Source: Cytophagales bacterium | Lineage (GTDB): Bacteria; Bacteroidota; Bacteroidia; Cytophagales; VRUD01 | DNA: 43,920 nt | NCBI GenBank assembly: GCA_019456305.1 | Contig: VRUD01000033.1 | Location: 1-43,920 of the forward strand | Reading direction: 5' to 3' | Made by a program: the position numbers and the translations under genes | Notes under the pieces: generated by a model | What the model saw: the letters and a program-made list of their open reading frames with translations, nothing else | What the model was told of the DNA's origin: nothing | Databases searched by the model: none | Part shown: positions 5,795 to 38,080 of the stretch, piece by piece | How positions within the stretch are numbered: the first letter of the stretch is position 1 | Layout: every line of letters starts with the position of its first letter

Positions 5795-6204
5795 AATTTT
5801 TTTTTAAAAAGAAAAATAGTATGGATTCATATAAGACAAAATCCGAAATTCAAAATCCGAAATCCGAAACCACTAATTACACGAATTACACTAAATTAGT
5901 GAAATTCTTAATTAGTGGTTTCAAAAAATTATGCTGCAAATTTAACAATAGTTTTAAATATTTAAGAGGTTTGTAAAAAAAAATAGGCTCTATTCTAATT
6001 ATTGGTTGATAGATTATCGGTTTTCGGTTCAGTAAATTCAATAAGTTGGCAAAATGCAGTTGGCAGTTGGCAAATCTTTCCTCGCCTTTGGCGAGGGAAT
6101 TTTTTGCCAACTGCCTATTGCCAACTGCCGACTTGAAAAGGCCAACTGCCAACTGTTTTTATAATTACTACCAACCAATAATTAGAATAGAGCCAAAAAT
6201 TATT
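5795..6204. other. Non-coding region of stacked inverted repeats upstream of ung
   Basis: There is no credible gene. It holds repeated CCGAAATCCGAAA words near 5836-5870, a 14-bp stem GAAACCACTAATTA (about 5867-5880) pairing with 5911-5924, and then the large element 5986-6194. Open frames here are translations of the repeats. Confidence 0.65.
5986..6194. repeat. Large word-repeat hairpin with perfect 23-bp outer stem
   Basis: The outer arms 5986-6008 and 6172-6194 are perfect 23-bp inverted complements (GGCTCTATTCTAATTATTGG is the first 20 bases). Inside, the left part has tandem GCAGTTGGCA words (about 6055-6072) and the right part has their complements TGCCAACTGCC (about 6103-6154). The right end is 10 bases from the ung start, so the long leader would fold strongly or the element could carry the ung promoter. 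Confidence 0.85.
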
Positions 6205-11153: not shown

Positions 11154-11209
11154 TTTTGTAATTTCATGTAAATGTCATAATTTTGCTACCCAATAACAAA
11201 AAAATATTG

Positions 11210-11415
11210 CCACTAAAGCACAAAAGCACTAAATCCCACGAAAGCAGTTTGCAGTTGGCAGTAGGCAATAAGCAGTAGGCAATAGGCAAATAGGTAGGCA
11301 ATATTGCCTACTGCCTACTGCCAACTGCCAATTTCTTTAGTGGGATTTTGTGATTTAGTCCCCCCAAAGGCGGGATTGTGGCAAAACAAACTAAATTCCC
11401 CCGATTGCATCGGGG
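11210..11415. repeat. Word-repeat hairpin plus GC-rich palindrome before a TlpA gene
   Basis: CACTAAAGCACAAAAGCACT words (11213-11232) and their rough complement TTTAGTGGGATTTTGTG (11336-11352) form the outer pair. Inside, tandem GCAGTAGGCAATA words (11250-11290) face TTGCCTACTGCCTACTGCC (11304-11322). At 11399-11415 is a GC palindrome CCCCGATTGCATCGGGG with trailing CAGGC, a form also found inside argS. No gene is seen in the 11154-11443 gap. Confidence 0.8.
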
Positions 11416-16047: not shown

Positions 16048-16138
16048 GATAAATAGTTGGTTATAATTAGTGTCTGTCTATAAAGTCGAATGTTTAATAT
16101 ATTATAGTAAAAACATAGCTTCGTAAGTTGATTAAAAA

Positions 16139-16237
16139 GTCGGCAGTCCACAATCGGCAGTCCATCCCGAGTACTCGGGAGCAGTCGGCAATTGTTTTTT
16201 GCCGACTGGGGACTGTGGACTGCCGACTGCCGACTTA
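16139..16237. repeat. Word-repeat hairpin with GCAGTCC words and a TCCCGAGTAC palindrome
   Basis: The left arm has tandem CGGCAGTCCA words (16140-16164) and the right arm their complements GGACTGCCGACTGCCGAC (16216-16235). Between them is the perfect 16-bp palindrome TCCCGAGTACTCGGGA (16165-16180) also found at 32182 and, in variant form, inside three genes. The 16048-16325 gap has no gene. Confidence 0.85.
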
Positions 16238-16325
16238 ATGTTGAAACTTTGGATTTTCATTATTGTATTCATGTTTTCAAGTGCCCATTGCCCACGTACT
16301 CACGTGAACATATTATCTTCTCAGA

Positions 16326-16947: not shown

Positions 16948-18885
16948 TTACATTCTCTCCGGTACCTCAATACCTAACAGCGCCATTGCCCTTTTTATAG
17001 TTTGTGCCACAATATACGAAAAAATAATTCTAAAAAAAAGTGTATCGTGATTTTTTTCACTTAAAACAGGAACTTCAACATAAAAACGGTTATACGTTTT
17101 TGCCAGGTCATACACATATTGAGCAATAATGGCAGGAGAATACGCTTCTCCGGCTTCTTTAATCCTATCAGGAAATCTGCTTAACAAAATTATAACTTCA
17201 CGCTCTGTTTGATGCAAAGAATGTTTCTTCCCGAGTACCCGGGACAAAGGCCGCAAAGAAAAAAAATCAAACAACTTTGCGTCTTTGCGAGAAAATTTTT
17301 CTTTAGCTTTTCTTAATATCGAAGAAATTCGTGCATAAGTATATTGCACAAAAGGGCCTGTAAATCCCTGGAAATCAATGGATTCTTTTGTATTGAAAAG
17401 CATTCTCTTTTTGGGATCAACTTTTAGCAGAAAAAATTTCAACGCCCCCAGAGCAAGCACACGATATAGCTGTTTGGCGTCTGCTTTTGTAAAACCTTCT
17501 ATTTTGCCCAATTCTTTTGTGTGTTTTTCTGCAATTGCGATCATTTCCGCTACAAGGTCATCGGCATCTACTACGGTTCCTTCCCTGGATTTCATTTTGC
17601 CCGCAGGCAGGTCAACCATTCCATAAGAGAGGTGGTAAATACCTTCAGCATACGGCTTGTTTAGCTTTTTCAAAATTTTCTTTAATACATCAAAATGATG
17701 ATCCTGCTCATTGCCTACCACATAAACAGATCTTTGCATTTTATGATCTTTATACTTCAGGTCGGCTGTTCCAAGGTCTTGCGTGATATAAACAGATGTT
17801 CCGTCAGCCCTGAGCAATAATTTATCATCCAGGCCATCACCCGTTAGGTCAACCCATACAGAGCCATCATCTTGCACTAAAAACAGGCCATCTTTCAATC
17901 CCTGCTCCACAATTTCTTTACCCAGTAAATACGTATCAGATTCGTAATAAAGTTTGTCAAAATCAACCCCGATTGACTTATAGGTAGCGTCAAATCCCTT
18001 ATAAACCCAATCATTCATTGTTTTCCATAATTTTCTCACTGTTTTATCTCCCTTTTCCCATTTATGTAACATCTCCCGTGCTTCTACCATTAATGGAGCT
18101 TCTTTTTGGGTAGCTTCGTCTCCAACTCCTTTGCTTTTCAACTGCAGAATTTGTTCCTGGTAAGCTTTCTCAAATTTTACGTAATAATCACCCACCAGGC
18201 GGTCTCCTTTAATGCCGGTTGATTCCGGCGTTTCGCTGTTTCCGAATTTCTGGTAAGCAAGCATTGACTTACAGATGTGGATGCCTTTATCGTTTATGAG
18301 GTTTGTTTTGATCACTTCATAACCATTTGCCTTTAAAATTTCACAGACCGAAAAACCTAAAAAGTTATTTCTCAAATGACCCAGGTGCAATGGTTTGTTG
18401 GTATTCGGAGACGAATATTCTACCATTATTTTAGCCCCCCTAACAGCCCCCCTGCCTCCCGCTATGCTGGCCCGATGTCCACTGGACATCGTCCTCCCCA
18501 AAGGGGGGACTTCCCCATCCCTTTTCCCACCCTTGTGTGGTTTCAGGTGCCTGCCCCGAATTCCTCGGGGTTTCCACCTGACAGAAATCTTGTTGAATAC
18601 ATTAACCCAAGCTTCATCACTAATGATAATATTTAAAAACCCTTTTACAACGTTGAAATCAGCAACTTCATTAGTATGCTGCTTTATATACTCCCCGATC
18701 TTTTTAGCAGTATCTTGTGGTGAACATTTTGTAATTTTAGAAAACGGAAATGTGACAAAGGTGAAGTCGCCTTCAAATTCTTTAGTGGTAGGCTGAAGGC
18801 TTATAGCTGCCTCTTTTAAATTAAGATCAAATAACTTTTTAAATGATGTGGCGATTTGTTTTATTAGAATTTTGTTTAAATCCAT
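16948..18885 (-). CDS. argS: Arginyl-tRNA synthetase with two translated repeat insertions
   Basis: Charges tRNA-Arg. ATG at 18885 ('MDLNKILIKQIATSF') gives 645 residues. The N-terminal ArgS additional domain is followed by the class I HIGH motif in 'SSPNTNKPLHLGHLRNN', a KMSKS-like 'GKMKSREGTVVDADDL', and the C-terminal anticodon domain ending 'LLGIEVPERM', the usual Bacteroidota end. Relatives from Bacteroides, as I recall them, are near 600 residues. The surplus is explained by two GC-rich or repeat-derived stretches: about residues 100-151 (DNA 18433-18586) just before the HIGH region, and about 537-560 (DNA 17222-17302) between catalytic and anticodon domains. Both keep the frame. As the only argS seen it is probably functional. 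Confidence 0.95.
   Translation of the reverse strand: MDLNKILIKQIATSFKKLFDLNLKEAAISLQPTTKEFEGDFTFVTFPFSKITKCSPQDTAKKIGEYIKQHTNEVADFNVVKGFLNIIISDEAWVNVFNKISVRWKPRGIRGRHLKPHKGGKRDGEVPPLGRTMSSGHRASIAGGRGAVRGAKIMVEYSSPNTNKPLHLGHLRNNFLGFSVCEILKANGYEVIKTNLINDKGIHICKSMLAYQKFGNSETPESTGIKGDRLVGDYYVKFEKAYQEQILQLKSKGVGDEATQKEAPLMVEAREMLHKWEKGDKTVRKLWKTMNDWVYKGFDATYKSIGVDFDKLYYESDTYLLGKEIVEQGLKDGLFLVQDDGSVWVDLTGDGLDDKLLLRADGTSVYITQDLGTADLKYKDHKMQRSVYVVGNEQDHHFDVLKKILKKLNKPYAEGIYHLSYGMVDLPAGKMKSREGTVVDADDLVAEMIAIAEKHTKELGKIEGFTKADAKQLYRVLALGALKFFLLKVDPKKRMLFNTKESIDFQGFTGPFVQYTYARISSILRKAKEKFSRKDAKLFDFFSLRPLSRVLGKKHSLHQTEREVIILLSRFPDRIKEAGEAYSPAIIAQYVYDLAKTYNRFYVEVPVLSEKNHDTLFFRIIFSYIVAQTIKRAMALLGIEVPERM
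17222..17302. repeat. Repeat-derived insertion in argS, distal site
   Basis: It contains TCCCGAGTACCCGGGA (17229-17244) of the 16-bp palindrome family, then CAAAGGCCGCAAAG (17245-17258) facing CTTTGCGTCTTTGCGAG (17275-17291), the common 'CGCAAAGACGCAAAG' inverted repeat. It is read as Ser-Arg-Lys-Asp-Ala-Lys ... Arg-Val-Leu-Gly-Lys-Lys in ArgS, in a linker where family members have little sequence. Confidence 0.75.
18433..18586. repeat. Composite palindromic insertion in argS, proximal site
   Basis: It begins AGCCCCCCTAACAGCCCC, the same start as the element inside the PP2C gene (26346). Inside are a 9-bp stem CGATGTCCA/TGGACATCG (18473-18491), the run CCCCAAAGGGGGG and, at 18545-18580, nested stems CAGGTG/CACCTG around CCCCGA/TCGGGG. 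It is far more GC-rich than the surrounding gene and is read in frame as Gly/Arg/Lys/Pro-rich sequence. Confidence 0.8.
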
Positions 18886-25748: not shown

Positions 25749-28700
25749 TCAAATTCTGATTCCAATCACTAAGACATCATCTAGCTGTTCTTCTTTATTT
25801 TTCCATTTTTCAAAAGTTTCATCCAATATTTCATGTTGTTTTTCCATTGAATGATGCTGTATTTCAATGAGCAAATCCTGGAACCTTTTATAGGTAAATT
25901 TCTTTCCTTCAGGGCCTCCAAATTGGTCTGCATAGCCGTCTGAAAATATATAGTAAGTATCACCATTTTTTATCTTTATATGGTGGTTTGTAAATTCTTT
26001 ATCCTTGCCCACTTTATACATGCCGATAGAAAATCTGTTTCCTTTGAATTTTTGTAACTGTTTATCCCTGATCAGGTAAAGCGGATTATACGCACCGGAA
26101 AATTGTAATTCTTTTTTGTGTAGATCAATTAAACAGAGCGCTATATCCATACCGTCTCTTGCTTCCCCTTCCTTTCCTTTTTGTTTTAAGGCATTAACTA
26201 TACCATCGTTCAATGCGCCCAATATTTTTGCTGCATCTGTAATTCCTTTATTATTTATTACTTCATTTAACAGATCATGCCCAATCACGCTCATAAATGC
26301 TCCAGGTACACCATGGCCTGTGCAATCTACTGCGGCTATGATAATAGCCCCCCTACCAGCCCCCTCTAAATTCCCCTCGCCACTACTCCTTGCCGAATCG
26401 GTGAATATGTGAATCGGTGAATCGGTGAATTGTTTCTTTTTTCTTCTCTCCGTTTCTCCGATTCCTCGTTTCTCCGATTCAGGGGGGCTTGGAATTAGAG
26501 GGGGGCTGAACCAATAAAAATCTCCACTCACAATTGCTTTGGGCTTAAAGAGAATAAAAGAGTGTGGTAAAACAGTTTGAATTTCTTCAGGATCCGGAAA
26601 GATTGCTTCCTGAATTTGTTTTGCATAATTGATGCTGTCTGTAATGTCTGTATTCTTCTGCTTTATTATTTCTTCAGCATTTTTTCTCTCTGTGATATCA
26701 GTATCTATAGCCACCAATTTCTTCAATGTCCCATTTTCGATAATGGGCGTAAGTGTAGTCTGTACCCATATCTCGTTGCCATCTTTGGTGCTATTCTTTA
26801 CTTCATACACTACCGAACTCTTTTTATTAATACAATTATCAATCACTTGTTTTATTTCAGGATTATTGCTCATTTCCATCATTGTTTCCCCTTTTTCTTT
26901 TTTAAATTCCTCCAGAGTGTAACCCATCATTTTTGCGAAACCTTCATTAGCCCATTCCAATTTTCCTGCCGCATTAGCGATTAATACTGCGTTATCAGTT
27001 TTGCTCGCCACAATAGAGAGTTTTTCTAATTCCTTCTTTTGCCTTGAAATCTCTTGAGTTCTGATCTTAACTTTTTGTTCAAGTAATCTTTTTTCCCGTT
27101 TCAGGTTTCTTTCACGTATCTTAATGTAGCTAATAATACCTCCTAAGCCTGTAAATCCAAATCCTAAATAAAACCATAATGTCTGCCACCAGGGGGGGGA
27201 AATATTAAAGCTAAATATTGTTGGCTTTTTATTCCATATTCCATCATTATTGCAGCTTTTTACTATAAAGGTATACTCTCCATGAGGCAAATTTGAATAG
27301 GTGGCTTCTTTTCTTTGTGTAATGGGCGACCAATTTTTGTCAAATCCTTCTAATTTCCATTGATATTTTACTTTTTCCGGTATTGTTAAGCTGATACCAA
27401 TAAATTGAAATGTCAAATGATTTTGATCATGGGGAAGATCTAAGCCTAGAGGCAAACCGGTTTGATAGCTTATTGTATCAGAATAACCAGACCAGTTAAA
27501 ATCCTCAAAGAAGAGCTGCAATTTGGTGATATGGGTAAGCGGCTCTGTTTTGTTGGATATATCCAATTTAGGATCATATTTAATGGCTCCTTCAACAGTG
27601 CCAAACCAGATATTTCCATTGCTATCCTTATATACAGCATTATGACTTGTCTCAATTCCTCTGAAACCTTCTAACTTTCCAAAGTGCTTCACCTTTTTAA
27701 TAGGACTTGCTTTGATATAAAATTTATCAATTCCTTTATTAGTACCTACATATAAATAGCCATTATCATCAAATATCATTAAATAAGGAGTATCTGAACT
27801 TAAGCCATCCCTGGTAGAATAATTTCTAAAGGTACCTTTCGGACCGATATATGAAGGATATGTATATTTAGATATTCCATGGACTGTTCCAAACCACAAA
27901 CTACCCTCATTATCTTCAACTATTGACAGGATGTAATTATTTGGTAAACCGTCATCAGTAGTAAAATTTTCAAAAATAATACTATCATTCTCAAAAGATG
28001 AAACTTTACACCTTGAAAGACCATTTGATGTGCCGATCCAAAGATTACCTTTGTTATCCTCGCATATTGCTTTAATAGAATTAGCCGTTAGGCCATCATC
28101 AGTAGTATAGCTTTTAAATTTGCTCATACTACCGTTCAAGTTGAGTTTGGAAAGACCACCAAAGGTGCCTGCCCACAAATTTTGCTGACTATCCTCAAAA
28201 AGTACCATGACTGATGTTACAGGTGCACCTGGTGGGGCTAATAATCCATCTTTTTGGCTGTAAATTTTAATTACAGGTTTCCCACCTTTCGTTTTGGGTA
28301 GTGTATATTTTACCAGGCCGTCACGTGTTCCGATCCAAACGCTGCCTTTGGAATCTGAGAGCATTGACCAAATAGAGTTACTGGCTCCAAAGTACCCTGG
28401 CATAAAAATTTCAAAACCTTGATATTTGGCTGGATTATGCATGGTAAGATATGCTGGATTAGTATGAATTGGATGAAATTTTGCAATTCCGGCTACTGTA
28501 CCAAACCAAATATTGCCCTTTATATCTTCTGTAATTGCCCTAACATTGTCGCTACGCATTCCATGCAATGTAGTATATGTTAAAAACATTTTACCTTTAT
28601 ACTGTGTTATTCCTTTTCCGTAGTTTCCCATCCATATATTACCTTCCCTATCTTCACACATCGAGAGAGCTACACCTCTTGCAAACCCGTTTAAGTGACT

Positions 28701-29657
28701 AAATCGTTCATGATTCTTTCCATCAAATTTGATGGCAAGTGCAGATCCTCCACTTGACCAGATATTACCTTTCCGGTCTTGCAATAATGCCCAAATATTA
28801 CCCAACATTTCTGGTGTGGATAGTGTTAAGCTTTCAAGCTCCTGCAATAAATTTGAAGAATAATTTACTATCACTTTTGATATCCTGTCATAGAGAGCAA
28901 TCCACAAAAAACCATCTTTATCTTCCAATATTTTGCTCACGCTTTGAGGAGCATTCGCATTTTCAAGAGTGTAATTTTCAAACATATACAAAGGCTTCTT
29001 GCGATTACCAGCTATTTCGCTGCTGATCTGTATGAGTTTCGAAATACCATTTCTTGTAGCAAACCATATATTTCCTGCCCGGTCCTCAATAATATCATTA
29101 ATGGTATTGTTGGCAAGTCCATCTTTGGAAGTAAAATTATCAAGGTAGCTATTAAACTCTGAGCCATCACGGGTTTTTAGAAATGGAGCATTTGATGAAA
29201 GTTTTGAAATACCCTCTGTTGTCCCAAACCAAATATTGCCTTTGGAATCTTCAAAAATGGCGCTGATGCTGTTACCGATCAGCCCGTCATCAGTGGTTAT
29301 GCTAACAATGTTGATAGAGTCAGCTTTGTATGAAGATTTAGGATGAAAAGTAGAAATTCCCATGTTGGTTCCAATCCAGATATTTCCTCGTTTATCCTCC
29401 ATTATTTTTGAGGTACGGTTTGTGATAAGCCCTTCATAGGTAGTGTAATTTTTAAAACTCCTGCCATCATATTTTGATACGCCTCCATCAGTTGCCATCC
29501 AGATATTACCATCTCTATCCTGGATGATGTCGTAGACGGTAGCTTGTGCCAAACCATCTTCTACTGAGTAGATGCGGGTATTGTGGAGTTGGGCCTTTAA
29601 TTTCACCCCGTTAGATAATATTAATAAAACTAATAATATTGATAGTAATTGTTTCAT
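25749..29657 (-). CDS. Reg_prop/Y_Y_Y/PAS sensor with SpoIIE-type PP2C phosphatase output
   Basis: A 1302-residue inner-membrane sensor. After a signal peptide (1-22) come 14 Reg_prop blades, each with a version of 'EDxxGNIWFGTxxGISK', enough for two seven-bladed propellers in the periplasm. Next is a Y_Y_Y domain (about 739-805), one membrane helix ('WWQTLWFYLGFGFTGLGGII'), a coiled coil (850-885), a PAS domain (890-1000, 'ANEGFAKMMGYTLEEFKKEK') and a SpoIIE serine phosphatase (about 1035-1300) with 'SGDFYWFS', 'VDCTGHGVPGAFMSVIG' and 'FSDGYADQFGG' metal-binding motifs. Such proteins usually act on an anti-anti-sigma partner, absent here. Residues about 1050-1104 are a repeat-encoded insertion. 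It starts one base after the stop of the transporter/synthase gene. Confidence 0.93.
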   Translation of the reverse strand: MKQLLSILLVLLILSNGVKLKAQLHNTRIYSVEDGLAQATVYDIIQDRDGNIWMATDGGVSKYDGRSFKNYTTYEGLITNRTSKIMEDKRGNIWIGTNMGISTFHPKSSYKADSINIVSITTDDGLIGNSISAIFEDSKGNIWFGTTEGISKLSSNAPFLKTRDGSEFNSYLDNFTSKDGLANNTINDIIEDRAGNIWFATRNGISKLIQISSEIAGNRKKPLYMFENYTLENANAPQSVSKILEDKDGFLWIALYDRISKVIVNYSSNLLQELESLTLSTPEMLGNIWALLQDRKGNIWSSGGSALAIKFDGKNHERFSHLNGFARGVALSMCEDREGNIWMGNYGKGITQYKGKMFLTYTTLHGMRSDNVRAITEDIKGNIWFGTVAGIAKFHPIHTNPAYLTMHNPAKYQGFEIFMPGYFGASNSIWSMLSDSKGSVWIGTRDGLVKYTLPKTKGGKPVIKIYSQKDGLLAPPGAPVTSVMVLFEDSQQNLWAGTFGGLSKLNLNGSMSKFKSYTTDDGLTANSIKAICEDNKGNLWIGTSNGLSRCKVSSFENDSIIFENFTTDDGLPNNYILSIVEDNEGSLWFGTVHGISKYTYPSYIGPKGTFRNYSTRDGLSSDTPYLMIFDDNGYLYVGTNKGIDKFYIKASPIKKVKHFGKLEGFRGIETSHNAVYKDSNGNIWFGTVEGAIKYDPKLDISNKTEPLTHITKLQLFFEDFNWSGYSDTISYQTGLPLGLDLPHDQNHLTFQFIGISLTIPEKVKYQWKLEGFDKNWSPITQRKEATYSNLPHGEYTFIVKSCNNDGIWNKKPTIFSFNISPPWWQTLWFYLGFGFTGLGGIISYIKIRERNLKREKRLLEQKVKIRTQEISRQKKELEKLSIVASKTDNAVLIANAAGKLEWANEGFAKMMGYTLEEFKKEKGETMMEMSNNPEIKQVIDNCINKKSSVVYEVKNSTKDGNEIWVQTTLTPIIENGTLKKLVAIDTDITERKNAEEIIKQKNTDITDSINYAKQIQEAIFPDPEEIQTVLPHSFILFKPKAIVSGDFYWFSPPLIPSPPESEKRGIGETERRKKKQFTDSPIHIFTDSARSSGEGNLEGAGRGAIIIAAVDCTGHGVPGAFMSVIGHDLLNEVINNKGITDAAKILGALNDGIVNALKQKGKEGEARDGMDIALCLIDLHKKELQFSGAYNPLYLIRDKQLQKFKGNRFSIGMYKVGKDKEFTNHHIKIKNGDTYYIFSDGYADQFGGPEGKKFTYKRFQDLLIEIQHHSMEKQHEILDETFEKWKNKEEQLDDVLVIGIRI
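26346..26507. repeat. 162-bp element with inverted ends inserted in the PP2C domain
   Basis: The left end AGCCCCCCTACCAGCCCC and the right end (complement AGCCCCCCTCTAATTCC) are inverted repeats. The middle has GAATCGGTGAATCGGTGAAT words (26412-26431) facing TCTCCGATTC copies (26453-26480). Its length, 162 bp, is exactly 54 codons, and the frame stays open. In relatives 'SGDFYWFS' leads within a few residues to 'IIAAVDCTGHG'; here 54 extra residues intervene. Confidence 0.85.
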
Positions 29658-29658
29658 C

Positions 29659-31242
29659 TTAAAATATTTCTATTTTTTCTTTTAACAAAATAGGAATTGT
29701 GGTATTGATACTCCCTCCACGAGTCATTTGCAGTGCATTTGCATGCAAAACATCCATGATCGGGTTATCATCAGTGAGTATGATCCCTTCACTAAAATCA
29801 TAATCATCAATAAATATATTTTGACCTGTGAGGAAACTAAATGGGTCAGCAAACCTATCCCGTCTTTCAAATGAATACGAAGTTAAATCAATACCACCTT
29901 TACCGGCAGGCTTCATGCTAGCAAAAAACATTAATTCAGAAATTAGTTTCCAGTCATTTTGGGTGTTAATAAGCTTGTGATAAAACCCTGATTTTTGCAA
30001 TGTTTTACCAATTGACTTTGCGGCTAAATCATGTTCGCCTTCAAGTACATTTTGATAATGAAGAAAAACGATACCGTCATCATTTAAAATAGATTGTAGC
30101 TCTTTAAAACACTCTACAGTATAAACATTAGAGGGCTGATTTTCTCCGGCACTCATATCAAGGACGATAATATCATATTTCTTTTTACAGGTTCTAATAT
30201 AATGCCGGGCATCATCGGTATAAACCTTTACATTGTGGGTCATATAAAAATGTTTCCAGGCAAGGTATTTCATCCTCCTGTCTATTTCCACTGCGTCAAT
30301 ATTAAATCCAAGGAAGTTGAGCTCATTTACAAGATTACCGCCACCCAATCCGCAGATCAACACCTTTGAACCTGCTGGTTTGAATGAGGAATAAAAGGCA
30401 ATCCTGTGTATGTATTTCCACTGAGACCGGCCTGTTGGTATATGCATAAAGGTTTGGGATATATTATTGATGTGTAGGGAGCGTTTTTGTGTCTTTTTAT
30501 CGTCTGCAATCATTACCTGCCCTAATAAACCATCGCTTCTGTGTACTATTTTTATGTGGGAATGTCGTTTTTGTTTTTTGGGATTTAAATAGGCAGCTGC
30601 TGTTATAAAAATAAAAAATATAATACCCAGTGTAACTAAGAATTTTCTGTTCATTATAAAATAGGATAAGGAAATAATTGCCAATACAACGACATTAGTT
30701 ACGATACTTACTTTCAATCCATAAATTGGAAGAATATAAAATCCTGTTAAAAAAGTTGTTATTATACCGCCTGCTGTTGAAACAGCATAAACATTACCAG
30801 CAATATTACCTGCATTACTTATCTTTTCAGTAATTAATTTGATTATAACCGGTGATGTCATCCCAAAACAGACCAAGGGTGGAAACAGAAATGAAGTGCA
30901 AGAAATAATCCCGCCTGCCATATATCCCCAATCCAGCGTGCGTATCATTACAAGATTTCCCCAGAAAGGCATTATTACAACCAGCATCGTTGCAAGCAGC
31001 AATAAATAAAACAAAGTATTTGTTTGAGGGAATTTTTTAGAAACAAGACCACCTAAAAAGTACCCTGAGGTCAATCCGGCTAAGGTAATGCCAATAACAG
31101 ATGTCCATACGTATAAAGAATTGCCATAAAAGGGCGCTTCCATTGCAGCTCCAAGCAATTCCACGTTCATTACAGAGGCTCCTTCTATAAAAGCGATCAG
31201 GTACAATATATTACCTGATAATGACTTTTTGTTATTTTCCAT
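29659..31242 (-). CDS. Fused membrane transporter / spermidine synthase-like methyltransferase-fold protein
   Basis: The 527-residue protein has some eight membrane helices in residues 10-210 ('NILYLIAFIEGASVMNVELL' first), resembling the MFS-like part of fused spermidine synthases, and a Rossmann domain (about 235-440) with 'VLICGLGGGNLVNELNFLGF', 'AVEIDRRMKYLAWKHFYM', 'VYTDDARHYIRTCKKKYDII' and 'LDMSAGENQPSNVYTVECF'. The acidic 'D.DA' residues of the decarboxylated-SAM and polyamine sites are partly kept, but the substrate is uncertain; many such fusions have no proven polyamine activity. Its stop is one base before the sensor gene start, so the two form an operon in the order transporter, sensor. 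Confidence 0.85.
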   Translation of the reverse strand: MENNKKSLSGNILYLIAFIEGASVMNVELLGAAMEAPFYGNSLYVWTSVIGITLAGLTSGYFLGGLVSKKFPQTNTLFYLLLLATMLVVIMPFWGNLVMIRTLDWGYMAGGIISCTSFLFPPLVCFGMTSPVIIKLITEKISNAGNIAGNVYAVSTAGGIITTFLTGFYILPIYGLKVSIVTNVVVLAIISLSYFIMNRKFLVTLGIIFFIFITAAAYLNPKKQKRHSHIKIVHRSDGLLGQVMIADDKKTQKRSLHINNISQTFMHIPTGRSQWKYIHRIAFYSSFKPAGSKVLICGLGGGNLVNELNFLGFNIDAVEIDRRMKYLAWKHFYMTHNVKVYTDDARHYIRTCKKKYDIIVLDMSAGENQPSNVYTVECFKELQSILNDDGIVFLHYQNVLEGEHDLAAKSIGKTLQKSGFYHKLINTQNDWKLISELMFFASMKPAGKGGIDLTSYSFERRDRFADPFSFLTGQNIFIDDYDFSEGIILTDDNPIMDVLHANALQMTRGGSINTTIPILLKEKIEIF

Positions 31243-31319: not shown

Positions 31320-31450
31320 GCAAAAAAAAATTGCCACGAAGACACTAAGGCACAAAGAAACACAAAGATAATTTTAACCACAGATTACACAGATTTATTA
31401 TAAAAAACTTTGTGAACCTTTGTGCCTTCGTGTCTTTGTGGCAAGATTTG
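31320..31450. repeat. Word-repeat hairpin with CACAAAGA and CACAGATTA words
   Basis: GTGGCAAAAA...CACGAAGACACTAAGGCACA (31318-31355) faces TTTGTGCCTTCGTGTCTTTG (31419-31438) and GTGGCAAGATTTGTGG. The inner part has CACAGATTACACAGATT (31380-31396), a word also at 31249-31266 and at the end of the M23 gene. The gap 31243-31458 has no gene; FAH starts directly after the right arm. Confidence 0.85.
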
Positions 31451-36937: not shown

Positions 36938-36954
36938 TTTGTGAATTTGTTTTT

Positions 36955-37095
36955 GATTACGATACGAATAGGGTATAATGCTAATATACTAATTTATACT
37001 AATGATACGAATATTTTTACTCTGCTTCTTAATATAGATTTCTTTATTAGTATCATTAGTATTCATTCGTATATTAGCATTTTATTATTAGTATT
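36955..37095. repeat. Word-repeat hairpin with TACTAAT and GATACGAATA words
   Basis: GATACGAATAGGGTATAATG, ATATACTAATTTATACTAAT and GATACGAATA (36959-37013) face TATTAGTATCATTAGTATTC, ATTCGTATATTAGCA and TTATTAGTATTATG (37046-37096). It lies between etfA and the DUF151 gene and has no gene. Confidence 0.8.
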
Positions 37096-37099
37096 ATGA

Positions 37100-38080
37100 T
37101 TATTTCTTCAATTTCTTAGCCGCTTCAATCAGCTTAGGTACTACCTGGAAAGCGTCTCCCACAATGCCATAATCGGCTGCTTTAAAAAACGGAGCTTCCG
37201 GGTCTTTATTGACCACTGCCATCACTTTGGAAGAATTTACTCCCGCTAAATGTTGTATTGCCCCGGATATTCCTATAGCCAAATATAAATTGGGGCCAAC
37301 CGTTTTCCCGGTTTGGCCAACATGCTCATCTTCCGGCCGCCAGCCTGCATCAGACACAGGTTTGGAGCAGGCTGTAGCTGCTCCCAATAATTCAGCCAAT
37401 TCTTCGATCATGCCCCAATTTTCAGCGCCTTTTAATCCCCTGCCGCCTGACACTACAATATCTGCCTCAGTGACTGACAATTTAGCTTTTGACTTTTTAA
37501 CTTCTTTTACGGTTTCTTTGAAATATTTATCTTCTAACTTGGGTTCGTAGGTTTCTATTGAAGCCGAACCGCCTGATTCGGTGATCTTATATGAATTAGG
37601 TTTGACAGATAATATCTTAAATTCATTTAATAGCGCTACATATACGAAACCTTTACCTGAATATACGCTTCTTTTAACTACTAAACCTTTCTTTACTTCA
37701 GGAAGTTCCACTACACCTGCGCCATAGCTTGCGTTGAGCTTTGTCGCCAGGCGGGAGGCAATTGCCTGCCCGTTAAAAGTATGGGACAAGATCAAAGCTT
37801 TTGCCTGCTCTTTCTCTGCTATTTGAGCAATGGCAGATGCGTATCCCTGGAGCGAAAATTGTTTCAGCTTTTCGCTTTTTACGCTGATCACTTTTTGGGC
37901 TCCATATTTTCCGAGATCTTTCAGATCCGGATCGGATGCCAACCCGATTGAAATGGCAGTAACGTCTGCTTTTAGCAGACCAGCTACATCCGTGGCGTAA
38001 GTAATAGCCTCAAATGTAGCTTTTTTAAATACGCCATCCCAATTTTCTGCGAATACTAGTACGGACATTTTTTTGTTCAA
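37100..38080 (-). CDS. etfA: Electron transfer flavoprotein alpha subunit
   Basis: FAD-binding subunit of the EtfAB heterodimer that takes electrons from acyl-CoA dehydrogenases and related enzymes to the quinone pool. The 326-residue protein has an N-terminal Rossmann-like domain ('SVLVFAENWDGVFKKATFEA') and the C-terminal FAD signature 'VSGGRGLKGAENWGMIEELA', 'SDAGWRPEDEHVGQTGKTVG', 'YLAIGISGAIQHLAGVNSSK', 'VVNKDPEAPFFKAADYGIVG'. Length is normal. Its partner etfB normally lies next to it; here 2.7 kb of defence-like genes separates them on the same strand. mazF-like toxin is 6 bases upstream. Confidence 0.97.
   Translation of the reverse strand: MNKKMSVLVFAENWDGVFKKATFEAITYATDVAGLLKADVTAISIGLASDPDLKDLGKYGAQKVISVKSEKLKQFSLQGYASAIAQIAEKEQAKALILSHTFNGQAIASRLATKLNASYGAGVVELPEVKKGLVVKRSVYSGKGFVYVALLNEFKILSVKPNSYKITESGGSASIETYEPKLEDKYFKETVKEVKKSKAKLSVTEADIVVSGGRGLKGAENWGMIEELAELLGAATACSKPVSDAGWRPEDEHVGQTGKTVGPNLYLAIGISGAIQHLAGVNSSKVMAVVNKDPEAPFFKAADYGIVGDAFQVVPKLIEAAKKLKK

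Follow-up and report, generated by a model that had tools for sequence, protein, structure and literature searches.

In the window, i.e., the whole stretch of 43,920 nt that was analysed (contig VRUD01000033.1 of a Cytophagales bacterium, assembly GCA_019456305.1), palindromic repeats lie inside the gene for arginyl-tRNA synthetase (argS) and inside a sensor gene. The features are as follows.

16948..18885, minus strand: argS, arginyl-tRNA synthetase, the host gene, with Pfam N-terminal, catalytic and anticodon-binding domains
18433..18535, minus strand: element A, truncated, made of the outer A1 end AGCCCCCCTAA and the A core, read in ArgS as ...EVPPLGRTMSSGHRASIAGGRGAVRGA
18473..18491, no strand assigned: core palindrome of element A, CGATGTCCA-C-TGGACATCG, a perfect 9-bp stem with arms 100% complementary
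18536..18583, minus strand: element B, a nested hairpin of 48 nt, read in ArgS as VRWKPRGIRGRHLKPH
about 17229..17289, minus strand: second argS insert, element C (CGCAAAGACGCAAAG...CTTTGCGG) and then palindrome D (TCCCGGGTACTCGGGA), assigned by loop length and motif matches
26346..26507, minus strand: element E between A1-type ends, 162 nt (54 codons), in frame in the gene at 25752-29669, which encodes a propeller/SpoIIE (PP2C-type) sensor of 1306 aa

The argS gene is single-copy, with one PF00750 match in the whole genome by profile search, and its HIGH (HLGH) and KMSK (KMKS) motifs are intact in the alignment. A pseudogene backed by a second intact argS, which the earlier note on this DNA had named as a way for its reading to fail, was thus not found in the genome. 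The main insert, at 18433-18583, comprises 151 bp (151-153 nt) in frame with the host gene. The palindromic stretch that had been proposed here was borne out by the sequence, the 9-bp stem, the nested CAGGTG..CCCCGA hairpin of element B (18543-18581) and the open reading frame. It is indeed composite; however, it is not the one element that had been described but two abutting dispersed palindromic repeats, a truncated element A and a complete element B, from several mosaic families. As RNA, the insert folds at -58 kcal/mol, compared with -43.2 +/- 3.65 for shuffled sequences (z -4.06), and it beats all 200 shuffles. No Rfam family was found for it, the best match (whalefall-1, 18.3 bits) being far under the cut-off of 37.

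The A and B elements together code for about 51 residues of ArgS (101-151). Alignment with relatives showed that the loop connecting the N-terminal to the catalytic domain has 60 residues, whereas it has 19-26 in 28 of 28 relatives, in which the insert is absent from the same loop; the segment is therefore not an ordinary ArgS loop conserved across the phylum. The net gain over these relatives is about 35 residues, below the number encoded, so some of the native loop has been replaced. The earlier figure of 35-40 added residues holds for this net gain and not for the encoded length. Structure modelling, which the earlier note had recommended, was done with AlphaFold; the enzyme was modelled with confidence (pTM 0.87), residues 108-147 nearly all have pLDDT <50, and the A+B insert is thus predicted to be disordered within an otherwise confident fold. 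The loop that holds element C has 34 residues, compared with 16-29 in relatives, and the element C motif is also in frame in AroA (L064).

The 154-bp query was searched against its own genome (4.2 Mb, 159 contigs) at E <= 0.001, as the earlier note had proposed for the palindromes, and gave 50 matches, with both halves of the query dispersed. Two families were distinguished, A (query positions 1-100) and B (104-151). Element A matches more than 30 other places at 82-96% identity; its core pattern has 34 genome copies against 0 for the reversed control, and the core palindrome is identical in 23 of 33 copies. Element B is present in about nine genome copies, some of them degenerate, and those on contigs C16, C141, C71, C3 and C46 are 93-98% identical. 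The outer A1 palindrome (GCCCCCCTAA..., GGGGGATTTAGGGGG) occurs in 70 exact copies, and the A1 element of about 111 bp has terminal inverted repeats (AGCCCCCCTAA...TTAGGGGGGCT in ten copies). The commonest spans between the A1 ends are 111, 99 and 147 nt, all multiples of three, although two of ten spans are not. For element E, about 45 further places were counted among the rows listed by a protein search. The sizes of the elements range from 48 to about 160 bp, and the mosaic families (A1, A core, B, E, C, D) occupy roughly a hundred or more places in the genome. Open frames number three of six in A1, one of six in E and six of six in the A core. The idea that the elements are unusually free of stop codons in six frames was rejected, as A1 and E are no better than shuffles and the A core was equalled by 186 of 2000. 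More short inverted or palindromic repeats are present in the window at 6020-6150, 11190-11380, 16115-16250, 31320-31450 and 36940-37100; these are mostly intergenic and recur in other fetched DNA, and palindromes of other families abound in the genome.

The placement of the elements relative to genes was assessed in a census of 437 kb of fetched DNA, a sample chosen around element copies, which contained 103 sites, 101 of them uncut by a contig end. A site was counted as in-gene when its ORF was no shorter than 150 aa and extended for 25 aa or more on either side of the site. By this measure, 91 of the 101 sites are in frame inside ORFs with coding sequence on both sides. When the sites known only from the protein search (E) were left aside, 64 of 74 were in genes, compared with 423 of 600 segments drawn at random from this DNA (Fisher p 0.0036). 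The elements are thus not depleted from genes but mildly enriched in them, and this enrichment is present although insertions that broke the frame must have been lost by purging. ORFs of 190 aa or more contain 31 of the 33 distinct A cores, and when 21 A1 clusters were sampled irrespective of gene positions, 19 of them were also inside ORFs. One reading frame dominates, its signature peptides being the only ones matched at 67 of the 91 in-gene sites, and element E is read at in-gene sites in its single open frame. Element B was also located in frame in the genes for AroA, MurF, an alpha/beta hydrolase and a ribonucleotide reductase, where it invariably reads as [CR]QVETPRNSGQAPDTT or a closely similar peptide; the frame used in ArgS differs from that of these other in-gene copies.

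Nearly all of the 29 hosts that were scanned are recognised by Pfam, many with domains on either side of the insert, and they include XseA, LigA, MutL, HemF, AlaS, MiaB, GH3, SecDF, AsnB, ApbE and a phosphoglucomutase/phosphomannomutase-type enzyme. Alignment to solved structures revealed extra stretches in LigA (212-270), HemF (244-306) and AlaS (about 137-164 and 301-339), and two in AroA. The in-gene copies are predicted to add disordered peptides to their host proteins.

The families are nested within each other and exchanged at the same sites. Either arm of A1 can hold the A core, and A1-type ends enclose E. Three TPR paralogs with closely matching flanks carry elements at the same site, the A core in two and an A1 of 109 bp in the third. 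In the PP2C proteins, the loop that carries E at 26346-26507 has 13-17 residues in most element-free paralogs and 33-66 in others, where it holds A, A1, E or a further element type. The further type, SLPVIPGAGKGRSV(G/N)..EESPESLP, was observed at L221, L225 and L230, and its sequence is unrelated to A, B and E. Such exchange suggests that sites able to accommodate one insert go on to gather more. On the other hand, no base-level empty site was found among the TPR and PP2C paralogs compared, nor any target-site duplication. Between copies, 55 synonymous and 115 non-synonymous codon changes were counted, summed over six motifs and spread over the codon positions, and covariation in the A core stem amounted to 0 compensated and 10 broken pairs. 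Because the substitutions are spread and the stem changes uncompensated, neither the peptide nor the hairpin seems to be strongly selected after insertion.

Two other loci show related arrangements. A two-component propeller ORF (L072, C30:25214-28236) has several near-identical in-frame inserts (EGSPKNS.AGEKGDSSLRSEQA) between its propeller repeats. A 75-nt B copy (L071, C12:53650-53724) has a second palindrome nested in its loop; it lies right where an ORF begins that resembles acyl-CoA dehydrogenases, a family assignment made by eye, and is possibly part of a leader that is not translated.

Beyond this genome, the A core was found in none of the others among 396 Bacteroidota genomes searched, a set without any genome of the same family, and in no plasmid searched; viral contigs gave no exact match to the 31-base core pattern. 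Both the relatives of ArgS and the genome search at phylum level agree on a source in Bacteroidota. The GGGGGATTTAGGGGG palindrome is present in 17 of 390 relatives of the order, where the palindromes share the A1 core (AAGTCCCCC..GGGGGATTTAGGGGG). In these relatives it has at most 13 copies per genome, almost always intergenic, whereas this genome has 70 copies, the majority of them coding.

The earlier note had compared the argS insert with Rickettsia palindromic elements (RPEs), and the comparison is supported as regards the way of working. RPEs are about 150 bp long and form ten families, with 44 copies in R. conorii and nearly half of the copies in ORFs (PMC10969869; PMC2229807). In common with RPEs and similar repeats in Wolbachia, the elements described here are short, dispersed, palindromic, divided into several families and inserted in frame in unrelated conserved genes (91 of 101 sites); moreover, they code for an added peptide of some 15-60 residues and have no known mobiliser. 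The dispersed palindrome of about 100-150 bp with a stable stem-loop is also shared, although B alone has only 48 nt. Unlike RPEs, they reside in a 4.2-Mb Bacteroidota genome and not in Rickettsia, consist of GC-rich modules, are nested and exchanged as mosaics and have most of their copies in genes. They would therefore be regarded as RPE-like by mode of working, irrespective of descent, and are not filed as RPEs.

Other coding palindromes differ in several respects. Miniature inverted-repeat elements (MITEs) such as ERIC/RU-1, Correia and QMITE give in-frame ORF fusions and are mainly intergenic (PMC2229807; PMC5896051). The elements share with MITEs the non-autonomous nature, terminal inverted repeats (AGCCCCCCTAA/TTAGGGGGGCT in A1) and in-frame gene fusion, whereas neither a parent transposase nor a target duplication was found here. 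In Nematomorpha mitochondria, coding palindromes encode conserved residues of the host proteins, and the byp elements of yeast mitochondria are inverted repeats in coding genes that are not translated (PMC6649704). In contrast to both, an extra non-conserved peptide is predicted to be added in frame here. The kind of element is thus already known from RPEs and intragenic REPs, and what is new is the phylum, the larger scale and the mosaic nesting. The earlier remark that no such described family was known in Bacteroidota agrees with our literature search, in which no report of in-frame coding palindromes in this phylum was found among open-access papers, most subscription papers being outside the search.

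We consider it highly probable that these are small non-autonomous RPE-like palindromic elements which entered tolerant loops by insertion or nesting and are, by prediction, translated. This reading follows from copies that are 82-98% identical in unrelated genes, with open frames, and from the absence of the insert in relatives and paralogs. The elements would move as DNA hairpins, with the enzyme supplied in trans. An insertion would survive where it meets a surface loop, has an open frame and adds a net length divisible by three, and it would then be translated into a flexible peptide rich in Pro, Gly, Arg, Lys and Ser that the host tolerates. In ArgS, the peptide would join the N-terminal to the catalytic domain, and its effect is probably neutral or slightly costly. 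The difference between the 151-153 nt inserted and the net gain of about 35 residues speaks against a simple insertion in this gene. The excess of sites in coding sequence over random segments likewise counts against the explanation.

As for the mover, the elements could be REPs that are mobilised by REP-associated tyrosine transposases (RAYTs) and have entered genes by chance. This alternative bears on the mover alone and does not conflict with the main explanation; we regard it as rather unlikely. The hairpin form would fit it, and the genome contains five strong Y1_Tnp (IS200-like) genes (L127-L131), at least four of which have the motif YIxNQxxHH. Intragenic REPs of the GTAG and CGTC families have been described in other bacteria, most of them in O. 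terrae and R. conorii; their hosts are frequently DNA repair genes, DNA ligase and tRNA synthetases, and they sometimes occur as dimers or groups (PMC3733652). As in Opitutus terrae, the palindromes here lie inside ORFs and are predicted to be translated. However, the YIxNQxxHH motif resembles a Y1_Tnp subclass that is listed without REPs (PMC6006769). The Y1_Tnp genes are flanked by their own palindromes, e.g., CCCTGTAGGGGC and CTAACGGAGCGA, A and B are not in their immediate flanks, and the sole A1 copy nearby is about 1 kb off, so a tie of A and B to these genes was not supported. Furthermore, REPs are 20-40 bp long, carry a GTAG/CGTC tag and are mostly intergenic, whereas the elements here are longer, lack the tag as judged by eye and are mostly intragenic. 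No parent transposon with matching ends was found among the loci read.

It was also considered that the inserts may be cut out of the transcript or bypassed by the ribosome, as in the case of the byp elements of Magnusiomyces mitochondria, and hence be absent from the protein. Strong hairpins on the coding strand are in line with such a mechanism, and bypassing elements are likewise palindromic and repeated (PMC6649704). An untranslated element needs no open frame, yet the frames are open at 91 of 101 sites; E is read in the only frame of six that is open, and the commonest A1-end spans keep to multiples of three, though not all of them. Removal of the inserts before or during translation is therefore very unlikely. 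We give similarly little credence to domestication, by which the inserts would be useful loops or regulatory linkers held by positive selection. Several inserts do occupy housekeeping genes that are single-copy, one loop of the PP2C paralogs has received inserts repeatedly, and the dominance of one reading frame could point in the same direction; on the other hand, this dominance is explicable by the purging of frames with stops or hydrophobic peptides. Moreover, the hosts are unrelated and have no common function, the peptides drift with changes spread over codon positions, and different elements have been exchanged for each other at a single site. That the segment is a normal, lineage-specific loop of ArgS or an artefact of the assembly has a negligible probability in spite of the slight variation of the native loop (19-26 residues) and an assembly in 159 contigs, since the same DNA is not confined to argS but recurs with frames kept in dozens of unrelated genes on many contigs, none of the 28 ArgS relatives has a loop of such length and no other genome searched contains the A core.

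Within the explanation by non-autonomous RPE-like elements, a bolder proposal can be put forward tentatively, and we would not expect it to hold in full. The palindromes may be self-nesting modular mobile elements that have coding sequence as their main habitat, use earlier insertions as landing pads and are moved by an unrecognised mover, so that dozens of essential proteins may have gained disordered loops in a genome of ordinary bacterial size.

Protein-coding palindromes are best known from the obligate intracellular Rickettsia and Wolbachia, and weak selection is their usual explanation. Here, more than 90 ORF sites were found in the fetched sample alone from a 4.2-Mb Bacteroidota genome. 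There is also a practical warning, namely that peptides derived from repeats are present in the protein models of such genomes. LigA, HemF, AlaS, AroA, MurF and other hosts provide a natural panel of permissive insertion sites. Since one genome offers many single-copy enzymes, several families of elements, and paralogs that do or do not carry inserts, the question of how proteins gain insertions becomes directly testable.
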